From Magnetococcales bacterium (GTDB lineage: Bacteria; Pseudomonadota; Magnetococcia; Magnetococcales; JADFYX01): a stretch of DNA of 64,000 bases. The notes under the pieces were generated by a model. It was not told where the DNA came from, searched no databases, and saw nothing but the letters and a program-made list of their open reading frames with translations. Below are positions 7,400 through 47,720 of this stretch, piece by piece. The first letter of the stretch is position 1. Each line of letters begins with the position of its first letter. The stretch is from assembly GCA_015232365.1 (NCBI GenBank), contig JADFZU010000006.1, positions 21,456 through 85,455 of the forward strand, in the 5' to 3' direction. A program made the position numbers and the translations under genes.

Positions 7400-10300
7400 A
7401 TGGCTACTATAACCCAGAATAACAATAAAATTCCGACCAAATCAGATGCTTTACGTGCCAATTTGCGTGAGACCGCCGTTGAGTCAATAAACATTGATCC
7501 ACGTTATGAACCGTTGCGAGAGGTGGTTGCAAATTATGCTGGTATTTTAAAAAATCTCGACCGTCTGCTTAGGGAGTTGAGCCATCCATTTCGCAACTGG
7601 ACTCTGGTTCTGCCCGAGCTTAGGGGTTTTGTTTTAAAAAACTGCTCACGTTTTGTCCGTAGCCCCAAAGGGGCCGAATGTTTTTTACTGTTAAGCGATT
7701 TTTTTCTGGTGGCACTGGAGGAGGTTCGTAACGAAGATAACCTCAGGGCGGTTTTAGAGGGGCTGACCGCATACATGGAGAAGCAGGTCCAGGTTTTAAA
7801 AGGTGAGGAGCTTGCTGAATATGCTGCAGCTTTTGACTCAATATTTTTCTCACTCTCCAAGCTTCATGATTCAAAACTGCTTCTTCTCTCCCAGAGCCAC
7901 CACCCTCTAAAACGGACTGTGGCTCTAATGATGAAAAAGGCTAAATCTTCCGGTCAGCCCTTTCCCTTCTCAACTGAGATCATCCAGCAGTTGGCGATAC
8001 GCTCCCTCAAGGCAACTTACGAATATTGGTTGAAGCAGTCTGACCCGGAATGGTATGCGGTCTTGGGGACCGATCCTTGTGAGAATATCAGCCACCGTTT
8101 TTTAAAAAAAGCTTTGGCCGACCTAGAGCAGCTCTCCTCTGAAGAGGCTAGCCATGTAGTGGCCTTGAAGTTGACCAAAATGCCTTCGTTCCTGGATATT
8201 ATTCGCCACTACCGGCAAGCTGCTGATCTGTTGGGGCAGAGTCCTGTTGGGGAGGTAAGCTCGCCTGACCACCTTATAGAGGGGCGTAAGTTAAGGTTTT
8301 TATTTCATATTATGGAGATTAAAGGGCTCTCGATGATCCATGAAGAGTCCCTTAGGGAGATTAACCGTTCTCTGGTCAAATTGATTCGTCTGCAACAAAA
8401 CTATAACGAAATCCATTATGCATTTATTACTACATTCTCATTTTTAAAGGCCAATGTGGTCACCTATCCTCATACCGCCTTACAGTGTATTGAAGTTTTG
8501 GGGGTTGAGGTATTTCGCCACAATAACAATAGGCTTGTGGAGTCATTTTTAGAGCAGACGGTCCGTTTTGGTTTTCAATTTAGTTCGGTAACAGGGGTGG
8601 ATAACGACTGGCAGCCAATCTGCAACCCTGCCCATCTTTATAATATCCGGGTCTGGCTTAGTTTGATTACCCAAAACCCTACCTGGAGTCCCATGCTGTT
8701 TTCAGCACTTATAATCAACCTGAAACTATCTGGTGCGCTGATTCGGGATACCGATCTTTTCCAAAAAGAGATATCCAAGCTTTTAAATAGCGGTATCAAG
8801 CCGGTCTATAACCTTGCTAAACAGTTTTGCCGGCAGTTACCGGTATATTATAATGAGATTGGTGCTGAAGGTGAACTGCGTACCGTCTCCACTGAGCTTG
8901 ATGAGATTAGCCGCCGCAAGGACCGCCTAATCCATTTTTTACGTAAACAGTGCCATGTAGAGAGTACCAACCGGATAGTCGACCTTGCGTTTAATATATT
9001 CAAATTCTGGCAGACCGGGGATAAGAGTGTTCTAAGCGGTCTGGTCTCCGACTCTATTTTGGAAGAAATTGTCCCTAGCGGCCCCTATTTCGACCATGTG
9101 CATAAGATAGTTGCCTCTATATCCAAGGATAAGGATCTGGAGTTTGACCCCATAAGACAGTCGTTGGCCAAGGTTGAGGCGAAGGTAAAGGCTTTTACCC
9201 AGCTACCAGAGAGCGAAGGTCGGCGGGTGGTTCTATTGATCCGCCTCTGCCATCAGCTAGAGTTGAAATATAATCTAGGCTTTAGGGGGCTTGGTCAGCC
9301 CCTGCGACGGGCGGCAGAGGACGGTATTCCGGGTATGGATGCTCTTTTGAGTATTCTTGAGAGCGGTGCGGTGGGGTATGAGCGTCTGCTGGGGCTGTTG
9401 GATGCCATGGAGTGCTTGAAAGAGACTATTTTAAGTGATGAGGTTTTTCCGGCCCGTGAGGAGATCTATCAAAAGAGACATATAGCTGTGGATATTCCAT
9501 CGGTTTATGGCTGTTATGAGGAGCGTAAATTTGATGCTCTCTCACTAAGTTTTCGTCTTGAGAATCTCGCCAACGTTGATCTTGAAGGGCTGGTGGATCG
9601 GATACCGGAAGATTTTATCACTCGTGCAGCATTTTTCCGGGTTGGCAAATATTTGCGTGTTTTTATTCGGGCGTTGGATGTGGACGGAATTACATCAAGG
9701 AAACTGAGCCACATGCGGGAGGTTCTGGAGCGGTTTTTGGAGTTGAACCACTTCTCATACCACCAATACCTGGATATTTTTCGCAGTTTTTCCGAAGCGG
9801 TTAAGGATATAATTCTCACCTATTATACCACCAACCACCGGGATAATCTGGCGATTATTGTTCCGATGATCCCCAAGTCGGCACTGCTTGGTAAATTTGC
9901 CCCATTAAAAGACCAGGATGATGTTATCTCGGTGGAGAGAATAGGTGAGTCATTTCTTAGGGATCTAATTGCCGAGACTTTTGGTTTGCAGTCCTTTGAT
10001 CGTTTTATTAGCCGGATTTTGCAAATTTTGGCAAGACAGCAAGAGGTGTTGGCTCCCCACCGTTTAGATCAACTTATGACCTACGATCCAGCCAATCTTT
10101 TCTGCTCTCTATATGAGCCGGATGCCAGGGTGCGAAATTTAATCCATCTAGGTAATAAGGGGTTTAATCTGGTGGAGTTGGTGGAGAACAAAATCCCGGT
10201 TCCGGCTGGAGTGGTATTGACCACCGAATTTTTCCGCTGTAGGTCGGTAATCAGCGACTATCCCCCTGCTAGCAAAGATTATATTGCCCGTCTTCGGAAG

Positions 10301-11626
10301 CAGGTAACTAAAATAGAGCAACAGACCGGGCAGATATTTGGCTCTAAACATAGACCTCTGCTGTTATCGGTTCGTAGTGGGGCTTTAATTTCCATGCCGG
10401 GTATGATGCAGACCATTCACAATGTGGGGCTTAATGAAAAGATTGTTGAAGGTATGGCTCTTGAGTCTGGTAACTCCTTTTTTGCCTGGGACAACTATCG
10501 CCGCTTTATTCAATCCTGGTGTATGACTTTTGAGATGGACCGGGGGATTTTTACAGATTTGATGCATAGTGCCAAGCGGCGTTATGGAGTAAAGAAAAAG
10601 CGTGATCTTAGTGCAGAGCAGATGGAAGCTTTAGCCAGGCAATACCGGAAAGTTGCCGATGAACACGGTCTGACAATTCCAGATGACCCCTGGTGGCAGC
10701 TACTTGCCGCTATTAATCAGGTGGTTGAGTCATGGGAGTCAAAAAAGGCTAAAGAGTATCGGGGTATCATGAATATATCCGATGATTGGGGAACCGCAGT
10801 GGTTCTACAACGCATGGTCTATGGCAACCTGCATCATCAAGCCGGATCAGGGGTGTTTTTTACCGCCCATCCCCACCGCAAACTGGATCGGGTGCTGTTG
10901 TGGGGTGACTACACTCCTGGAAACCAGGGTGAGGATATTGTTGGTGGCCTGGTTTCTACCAGCCCCATCTCTCTGGAGCAGTGTGAATATGACGGCCGAG
11001 ATCCAGATACGAGTTTGGAGCGTTGTTATCCACAGATCTATAAAGTTCTTCTCGAGCAGTCCTATCAACTTATTGATGTCTGCAACTGGAACTCGCAAGA
11101 GATTGAGTTTACCTTTGATGGACCAACTGAGGAGAATCTGTTTTTTCTCCAGAGCCGGGACATGGTGACCAGTAAAAACCGTCAATCCATCTTCCACAGT
11201 TTTGTTGATACTCCCCAGTTAAGGCAGTCTAAGTTGATTCAGGGTATCGGTGTGAGCGGTGGGGCGTTGTCTGGTCTGGCGGTATTTAACCTTGAGCAGG
11301 TAGAGGAGTTGCGGCGAGAGGATGCCAAGACTCCTCTCATTTTAATTCGTTATGATACGGTTCCTGATGATATCCGGGAAATATCACTGGCTGACGGCCT
11401 GTTAACCGCCCGTGGTGGCCAGACTTCTCATGCTGCAATTGTCGCTGCGAGGCTGGAAAAAACCTGTGTAGTAGGCTGTGAAGATCTAGCTATTTACGAG
11501 GAAGATGGGGTGTGTAAAATAAACGGCAATACCATAAGATGCGGTGACAAAATCAGTATAGATGGTTTTCGAGGGTTGATGTTTAACGGCTGGCATGAGA
11601 TAGAGACAACTCTGCTGCCGCATTAA
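7400..11626 (+). CDS. Large PEP synthase/PPDK-like phosphotransferase (unrecognised N-terminal region, ATP-grasp PPDK_N, phosphohistidine domain)
   Basis: HLGNKGFNLVELVENKIPVPAGVVLTTEFF (from about aa 916) and LLTARGGQTSHAAIVAARLEKTCVVGCEDL (His about aa 1344); ORF ends soon after, with no PEP-binding TIM barrel. Confidence 0.85.
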   Translation: MATITQNNNKIPTKSDALRANLRETAVESINIDPRYEPLREVVANYAGILKNLDRLLRELSHPFRNWTLVLPELRGFVLKNCSRFVRSPKGAECFLLLSDFFLVALEEVRNEDNLRAVLEGLTAYMEKQVQVLKGEELAEYAAAFDSIFFSLSKLHDSKLLLLSQSHHPLKRTVALMMKKAKSSGQPFPFSTEIIQQLAIRSLKATYEYWLKQSDPEWYAVLGTDPCENISHRFLKKALADLEQLSSEEASHVVALKLTKMPSFLDIIRHYRQAADLLGQSPVGEVSSPDHLIEGRKLRFLFHIMEIKGLSMIHEESLREINRSLVKLIRLQQNYNEIHYAFITTFSFLKANVVTYPHTALQCIEVLGVEVFRHNNNRLVESFLEQTVRFGFQFSSVTGVDNDWQPICNPAHLYNIRVWLSLITQNPTWSPMLFSALIINLKLSGALIRDTDLFQKEISKLLNSGIKPVYNLAKQFCRQLPVYYNEIGAEGELRTVSTELDEISRRKDRLIHFLRKQCHVESTNRIVDLAFNIFKFWQTGDKSVLSGLVSDSILEEIVPSGPYFDHVHKIVASISKDKDLEFDPIRQSLAKVEAKVKAFTQLPESEGRRVVLLIRLCHQLELKYNLGFRGLGQPLRRAAEDGIPGMDALLSILESGAVGYERLLGLLDAMECLKETILSDEVFPAREEIYQKRHIAVDIPSVYGCYEERKFDALSLSFRLENLANVDLEGLVDRIPEDFITRAAFFRVGKYLRVFIRALDVDGITSRKLSHMREVLERFLELNHFSYHQYLDIFRSFSEAVKDIILTYYTTNHRDNLAIIVPMIPKSALLGKFAPLKDQDDVISVERIGESFLRDLIAETFGLQSFDRFISRILQILARQQEVLAPHRLDQLMTYDPANLFCSLYEPDARVRNLIHLGNKGFNLVELVENKIPVPAGVVLTTEFFRCRSVISDYPPASKDYIARLRKQVTKIEQQTGQIFGSKHRPLLLSVRSGALISMPGMMQTIHNVGLNEKIVEGMALESGNSFFAWDNYRRFIQSWCMTFEMDRGIFTDLMHSAKRRYGVKKKRDLSAEQMEALARQYRKVADEHGLTIPDDPWWQLLAAINQVVESWESKKAKEYRGIMNISDDWGTAVVLQRMVYGNLHHQAGSGVFFTAHPHRKLDRVLLWGDYTPGNQGEDIVGGLVSTSPISLEQCEYDGRDPDTSLERCYPQIYKVLLEQSYQLIDVCNWNSQEIEFTFDGPTEENLFFLQSRDMVTSKNRQSIFHSFVDTPQLRQSKLIQGIGVSGGALSGLAVFNLEQVEELRREDAKTPLILIRYDTVPDDIREISLADGLLTARGGQTSHAAIVAARLEKTCVVGCEDLAIYEEDGVCKINGNTIRCGDKISIDGFRGLMFNGWHEIETTLLPH

Positions 11627-12503: not shown

Positions 12504-13031
12504 TCAATCAGTGGTTTTGCAGGGGAATGCTTGGGACATTGCGTAATAGAAACATAATGATGCCCCTTTTTGCAGATTTTCAGGATGTTGTGCGGTATAT
12601 TTTAAAAAAGCTTTTTTGAGTCTGCCAGTAGTAACTTTTTTGGGAAAGCAGATGATTTCATGATTTTCTGAGTTGGACTGGAGAAAAATTTCCCAGCTAC
12701 TCATTCCGGCAAAATATCCCAGACATGAGCCGTACTCAATATTGTTCTCACTTTGACAATAATTAACTATCTTTTGGCAGGTGTAGGAGTTACTAACTGC
12801 ATTTTTTGGAGTGATAAGGAGAACAAGCAGAGCAAAAAAGAAGATTTTAATCCTAGATTCGGCAGTTGGGTGGGCATTAATGGTACAACCTCTGGATTTA
12901 CCAGGTGAATCTAGAGGTTGTGTCAGTGATGTGCGAACAACTGCCGAATCTAGGTTAATATAGTTACACACGGTTTTTTGTCCAAAATTAATGGGATGGG
13001 TCCGGGAAGGGGGGATGCCTCTTCCCAGCAT
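12504..13031 (-). CDS. Rap1a/Tai-like immunity-domain secreted protein; N-terminal extent uncertain because of a repeat insertion
   Basis: GSCLGYFAGMSSW...EIICFPKKVTTGRLKKAFLKYTAQHPENLQKGASLCFYYAMSQAFPC; hydrophobic signal-like IKIFFFALLVLLITPKNAVS; first ~60 aa derive from repeat DNA. Confidence 0.65.
   Translation of the reverse strand: MLGRGIPPSRTHPINFGQKTVCNYINLDSAVVRTSLTQPLDSPGKSRGCTINAHPTAESRIKIFFFALLVLLITPKNAVSNSYTCQKIVNYCQSENNIEYGSCLGYFAGMSSWEIFLQSNSENHEIICFPKKVTTGRLKKAFLKYTAQHPENLQKGASLCFYYAMSQAFPCKTTD
12852..12954. repeat. Dispersed inverted-repeat element family A (MITE-like), best-preserved copy
   Basis: Perfect 17-bp TIRs CCTAGATTCGGCAGTTG / CAACTGCCGAATCTAGG; nested hairpin ACAACCTCTGGATT / AATCTAGAGGTTGT; flanked on both sides by TTAAT. 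Confidence 0.85.
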
Positions 13032-45143: not shown

Positions 45144-45164
45144 TATCCTTTCAAACTAATAGAT

Positions 45165-45225
45165 GGGCAGGGGAGGGCTTGCCTCACTGCTGGGTGTGGG
45201 CAAATCCCACGGTTTTGCCTTTTAT
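45165..45225. repeat. GC-rich dispersed repeat family B
   Basis: gggcaggggagggcttgcctcactgctgggtgtgggcaaatcccacggttttgcctttt. Confidence 0.6.
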
Positions 45226-45234
45226 CTTTCAAAC

Positions 45235-45394
45235 CAAATTCAGCAATTATTCATACATCACTGGTGCAAACTCTTGATTCACCAGGCATATCAGAAAAAA
45301 GTCTCATAACCAGAATGTGACATCGATTTTTCCTGATTCATCAGACAAAACTATATCTTATAACATTAATGCACGTCCAACTGCCGAATCTAGG
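45235..45394. repeat. Dispersed inverted-repeat element family A, longer diverged copy
   Basis: ATTCAGCAATTATTCATACATCACTGGTGCAAACTCTTGATTCACCAGG ... ATTAATGCACGTCCAACTGCCGAATCTAGG matches the reverse complement of 12852-12954. Confidence 0.75.
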
Positions 45395-47581: not shown

Positions 47582-47654
47582 GAATATATCCGGTTTTGAG
47601 ATATTGCAGAGCTTAGCCCCCACACTCCATTGGGAATGGCAGGTCATCTTCAAT

Positions 47655-47720
47655 ATAGATTCGGCATTTTGGCGTGAATCAAGAGGCTGTGCCAATGATG
47701 TGCGAACAACTACCGAAGAG
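47655..47720. repeat. Dispersed inverted-repeat element family A, short internally deleted copy
   Basis: tagattcggca...GTGAATCaAGAGGcTGTGcCAaTGATGTGCGAACAACTaCCGAA, near-identical to 12906-12950. Confidence 0.75.

Follow-up and report, generated by a model that had tools for sequence, protein, structure and literature searches.

The 103-bp element at positions 12852 to 12954 of the window (the whole 64,000-nucleotide stretch of Magnetococcales DNA that was analyzed) is very probably a MITE that an IS1380-like DDE transposase mobilized in trans. This enzyme would recognize the 17-bp ends CCTARAWWCGGCAGTTG and insert the element at WTNAW sites, making a 5-bp duplication, and its autonomous partner would be an insertion sequence of 1.63-1.71 kb that is intact in other bacteria and fragmentary in other Magnetococcales families. 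The initial annotation had left the choice between a non-autonomous transposon and a structured-RNA repeat, and the former reading is upheld by the many copies, the 5-bp duplications, the orthologous empty sites and a transposase gene with the same ends.

The focal copy, CCTAGATTCGGCAGTTG...CAACTGCCGAATCTAGG, has perfect 17-bp inverted ends, the left one (CCTAGATTCGGCAGTTG) at 12852-12868 on the plus strand and the right one at 12938-12954 on the minus strand, and TTAAT lies directly outside both of them (12847-12851 and 12955-12959, plus strand), confirming both the coordinates and the sequence that had been reported for it. Its two 51-nt halves are 78% complementary to each other, and folding of the 103 nt gave a single hairpin on the plus strand (-70.2 kcal/mol, z -14.9) as well as on the minus strand (-46.9 kcal/mol, z -9.4). 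No Rfam family matched the element at the gathering score, and a plasmid search with the 103-bp element as the query returned zero matches. The element would be translated in frame near the N-terminus of a minus-strand ORF (12504-13031, predicted start) with a Rap1a-like domain (PF18602, residues 86-171), immediately upstream of a probable signal peptide (LDSAVVRTSLTQPLDSPGKSRGCTINAHPTAESR). Matches at L007 and L081 that ran beyond the MITE had raised the idea of a Rap1a paralogue; these alignments are weak and contain stops, and the idea was rejected. At this site the order of the genes after prfA varies, and relatives have a different gene adjacent to prfA. Elsewhere in the window, a 1408-aa ORF (7400-11626, plus strand) has the unusual architecture of phosphate-dikinase-like regions in its C-terminal third only.

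Within the window, the end motif occurred 10 times at up to three mismatches, compared to 2.0 expected. The three related copies that had been pointed out are all real, although their ends are not uniformly kept as had been claimed. A 233-bp relative (1613-1845) retains both ends, with two mismatches on the left and one on the right, around a mostly unrelated interior, and its flanks, GTAAC and ATAAT, make no clean target duplication. A 160-bp copy of the main form (45235-45394) has a decayed left end and a perfect right end, while both ends are decayed in a 67-bp, internally deleted copy (47654-47720) that lies upstream of a Methyltransf_28 gene. The suggestion that the element is abundant genome-wide was borne out by a motif search: the 2.84-Mb genome (103 contigs, about 83% complete) contains 238 end motifs (17-mer, up to three mismatches) versus 6 for the reversed control. 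We catalogued 89 copies, 65 of them with both ends; most are intergenic, and copies of 162-164 bp and of 103 bp are the most frequent. The TTAAT repeats of the focal copy follow a genome-wide rule, since exact 5-bp duplications flank 24 of the 65 two-ended copies, whereas shuffled partners gave 4.0 (never more than 10 in 500 shuffles); duplications of other lengths did not stand out among these copies. The elements thus have the features of MITEs, being short, dispersed and without a transposase gene, with inverted ends and a duplication of constant length.

The main form is 163 bp long, and the focal copy, when aligned to 163-bp copies, is the same element minus about 60 inner bases. Since imperfect direct repeats of the TTTRYCWGGTGAATCA type are found at both sides of the stretch that is absent from the 103-bp form, slippage or recombination between these repeats is the likely origin of the short form.

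Empty sites in relatives, which are expected of a mobile element, were found for several copies. The aroC-fabI interval, which holds the copy at 45235, contains no element of the MITE family in any of the four congeners (G001-G004); there is almost no spacer in G003, and a different, longer palindrome is present instead in G001, G002 and G004. G001 and G004 lack the copy at 47654 at the corresponding position, and for a kinase gene that carries a copy in the own genome, the most closely related genes of G001 and G002 are free of it. The longer palindrome of the aroC-fabI spacer (L278 in G002, L279 in G001, L281 in G004) is another repeat, roughly 400 bp long, whose ends resemble GGGGGTCCAGGGGAATCATTTCCCTGGTGGGTTTGGGCAAAGCCCAAGG; only a decayed remnant of it is seen in the window, at about 45160-45230. 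The end motif is also present at high copy in other Magnetococcales records. In a MAG labelled Nitrospinota (nPCRbin9; L138), a 163-bp MITE is nearly identical to the Magnetococcales copies, and this near-identity may reflect mislabelling or contamination of the bin, or a recent transfer.

A scan of GTDB genomes recovered the exact 17-mer in at least 112 stretches from several phyla, with Burkholderiales, Geobacteraceae, Verrucomicrobia, Hydrogenedentota and Acidobacteria among the matches listed. An exact 17-mer end was also seen in a Poseidoniales archaeon MAG (L207), where it may be due to chance or contamination or may mark an archaeal copy. Where two ends are paired and their 5-bp flanks are identical, they delimit MITEs of 162-164, 199/200 and 233-235 bp, together with single examples of other lengths, and across phyla the interiors of these same-ended MITEs are otherwise unrelated. 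For 70 distinct elements from many genomes, the consensus of the target duplication is WTNAW, with T at position 2 and A at position 4 in 99%.

A transposase gene lying between such ends, as the initial annotation had envisaged, is present in other bacteria, in complete insertion sequences of 1.63-1.71 kb that encode an IS1380-like transposase. In L127 (the same element as L218), the ends are 1634 bp apart (445-2078) and enclose a 513-aa transposase, and the duplication is ATGAT. Further complete insertion sequences with matching ends are flanked by ATTTA (L219), TTTAG (L222, Acidobacteria), ATTAT/ATAAT, with one mismatch (L220), and TTAAA (L217, on a Polaromonas plasmid). IS1380 was the best NCBIfam match for all six full-length transposases (best E 1.6e-45). 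The L127 transposase scored 63.2 bits against Pfam DDE_Tnp_1_4 (PF13701; cut-off 34.7) and 130.6 bits against the NCBI IS1380 model, which is below the cut-off of 180, and for this reason we keep the family assignment at 'IS1380-like'. The partner ends start with CC(T/C) and the 5-bp duplication is AT-rich, which fits the IS1380 criterion of CC(T/C) ends and an AT-rich duplication of 4-5 bp. The earlier remark that no named family with these ends was recognized can be refined, as they start with CCTAGATTC like those of ISEcp1, in the IS1380-like group. A PDB search with the transposase profile gave no match.

The insertion sequences and the MITEs also share an internal box, TCACC-N5-GGTGA. CACC-N5-GGTG was present at the transposase start in all nine of the insertion-sequence 5′ regions examined, with TCACC-N5-GGTGA as the rule. 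In several of these insertion sequences, the start codon of the transposase forms the last three bases of the N5 loop (AAATG, CGATG, CTGTG), and in the remaining ones the box is translated, giving HPxGE or HQxGE. The codons used there are CAC and GGT even though synonymous ones are available, which suggests that the DNA or RNA itself is constrained. We grouped the 65 MITEs of at least 110 bp into 13 clusters between whose interiors no similarity could be detected and took one random member of each; the box, at up to two mismatches, was found in 10 of the 13 unrelated clusters versus 0.54 expected (at most 3 clusters in 200 shuffles), and its usual place in MITEs is 75-78 bp from one end. Since MITEs need no start codon, the box probably works in cis. 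We tentatively suggest that the transposon may require it in cis, as an operator or a hairpin, for regulation or transposition, and that MITEs of unrelated bacteria might keep it at 75-78 bp for recognition of the ends plus the box or for titration of a repressor. Some MITEs, such as the 116-bp L182, may simply have arisen from the insertion sequence by internal deletion and would then carry the box by descent.

A profile built from three partner transposases found matches in 17 of the 39 named genomes carrying the ends. Other Magnetococcales families yielded decayed or contig-edge relatives of the transposase (L335, L336 and L340-L342); several of these adjoin the ends described here, and the internal box is usually present as well. 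No intact transposase of the partner subgroup was found in the own genome or in the four congeners; as the own genome is about 83% complete in 103 contigs, a copy could be missing from the assembly. We infer that a transposase of the partner type, or a close relative that has been lost, moved these copies.

It is unlikely that the MITE was moved here by a different IS1380 subgroup, for example by the one that resides on contig C41. The own genome does contain pieces (L029, L030) of another IS1380 transposase, whose ends differ; this subgroup adjoins a MITE-like stretch and could in principle act instead, and an IS1380 element in G047 has the ends CCCAGATTGTCCAT and the 5-bp duplication ATGAA. 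However, the ends of this subgroup match the MITE over only about the first 8 bases, whereas the A1/A2 subgroup agrees with it over all 17 bp of the motif, apart from a few mismatches, and has the internal box as well. The IS1380 elements of contig C41 were rejected as the direct partner because their ends differ. At the end of this contig (L030), an IS1380-type transposase with CCTGGCTAGCCCGGATATTTCAT upstream starts directly beside a truncated right half of a MITE, and the G047 element (L091, 1425-2918) looks intact and belongs to a subgroup distinct from the MITE partner. A further rival reading is a fixed structured-RNA or regulatory repeat (a terminator, an RNA-stability hairpin or a protein-binding repeat). 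The intergenic position of most copies and the strong hairpins obtained on folding would suit such an immobile repeat, but the target duplications, the copies inside genes, the sites empty in congeners and the occurrence of the same ends on real insertion sequences make it extremely improbable. Because the hairpins fold as a by-product of the inverted repeats, the structured-RNA alternative of the initial annotation is not needed.

The copies inside genes bear on another explanation, in which a translated element, like the Rickettsia palindromic elements (RPE), is selected for in-frame insertion and a tolerated peptide. A Ser/Thr kinase carries a 163-bp copy that separates HRDIKPGNI from the DFG segment; when this kinase is aligned to PknB from the PDB, the alignment breaks exactly at the insert, and related kinases in G001 and G002 continue uninterrupted through its position. 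In an OGT-like (O-GlcNAc-transferase-like) protein, the TPR region is separated from the glycosyltransferase-41 region by a 139-bp copy that TTTAA flanks at either end, and an SGNH-type acyltransferase contains a 112-bp copy. All three are open in the same frame and orientation, one frame is open over 54 codons, and 163+5, 103+5, 139+5 and 112+5 are all divisible by three, which speaks in favor of such an element. Nonetheless, we consider this explanation very unlikely, since genic copies make up just a handful of the 89 and same-ended MITEs elsewhere are 200 or 234 bp long, which are not in-frame lengths. In addition, wobble-position changes were not in excess among the per-genome consensus sequences, and the versions in G003, G004 and G047 have stops in the open frame. 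Selection of a coding or RPE type was rejected on the basis of the wobble test and the 200- and 234-bp relatives; given the stops in several genomes and the lack of a wobble excess, we read the in-frame copies as tolerance rather than adaptation.

Transposons and MITEs of this kind are already known, and what is new here is that several phyla share the ends, that there is an internal box, and that some copies lie in frame within genes. The open literature that we searched, a scope with subscription journals and ISfinder outside it, contained no earlier description of the element, and the end sequence appeared in one paper only (PMC8542531), whose title and abstract concern an unrelated subject. 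As judged from sequence comparison, an unnamed, abundant repeat of magnetotactic-group bacteria can probably be tied to a specific transposase group, and the same ends are demonstrated on MITEs of several phyla. The conserved internal box is newly exposed and open to direct testing. The in-frame copies provide a second case of palindromic repeats entering protein genes, a behavior best known from Rickettsia, and here the repeat appears assignable to a transposase.

Correia, ERIC and CIR elements are classical bacterial MITEs. Like these and others (PMC10969869), the present elements are short and non-coding, with inverted ends and many copies, but their ends and target are different, and the same ends occur on otherwise unrelated interiors in several phyla. 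They resemble the IS1380 family and ISEcp1 in a DDE transposase nearest to the same family profile, in ends that start with CCTAGATTC and in an AT-rich 5-bp duplication (PMC7864471; PMC10454011). ISEcp1 has the IRL CCTAGATTCTACGT and a 5-bp duplication (PMC7864471); unlike it, the end diverges after 9 bases (GGCAGTTG versus TACGT). The partner transposase of about 513 aa also differs from the IS1380 family, with L127 below the NCBI cut-off, and the TCACC-N5-GGTGA box at the transposase start is described from the elements studied here alone. The Rickettsia palindromic elements are palindromic repeats of about 100-160 bp, some of which lie in frame inside unrelated protein genes (PMC10969869). 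The present elements are palindromic repeats of similar length that likewise have a few copies in frame within protein genes; in contrast to those of Rickettsia, a conserved peptide was not seen, most copies are intergenic, and the ends and the target duplication have been identified together with a matching transposase.
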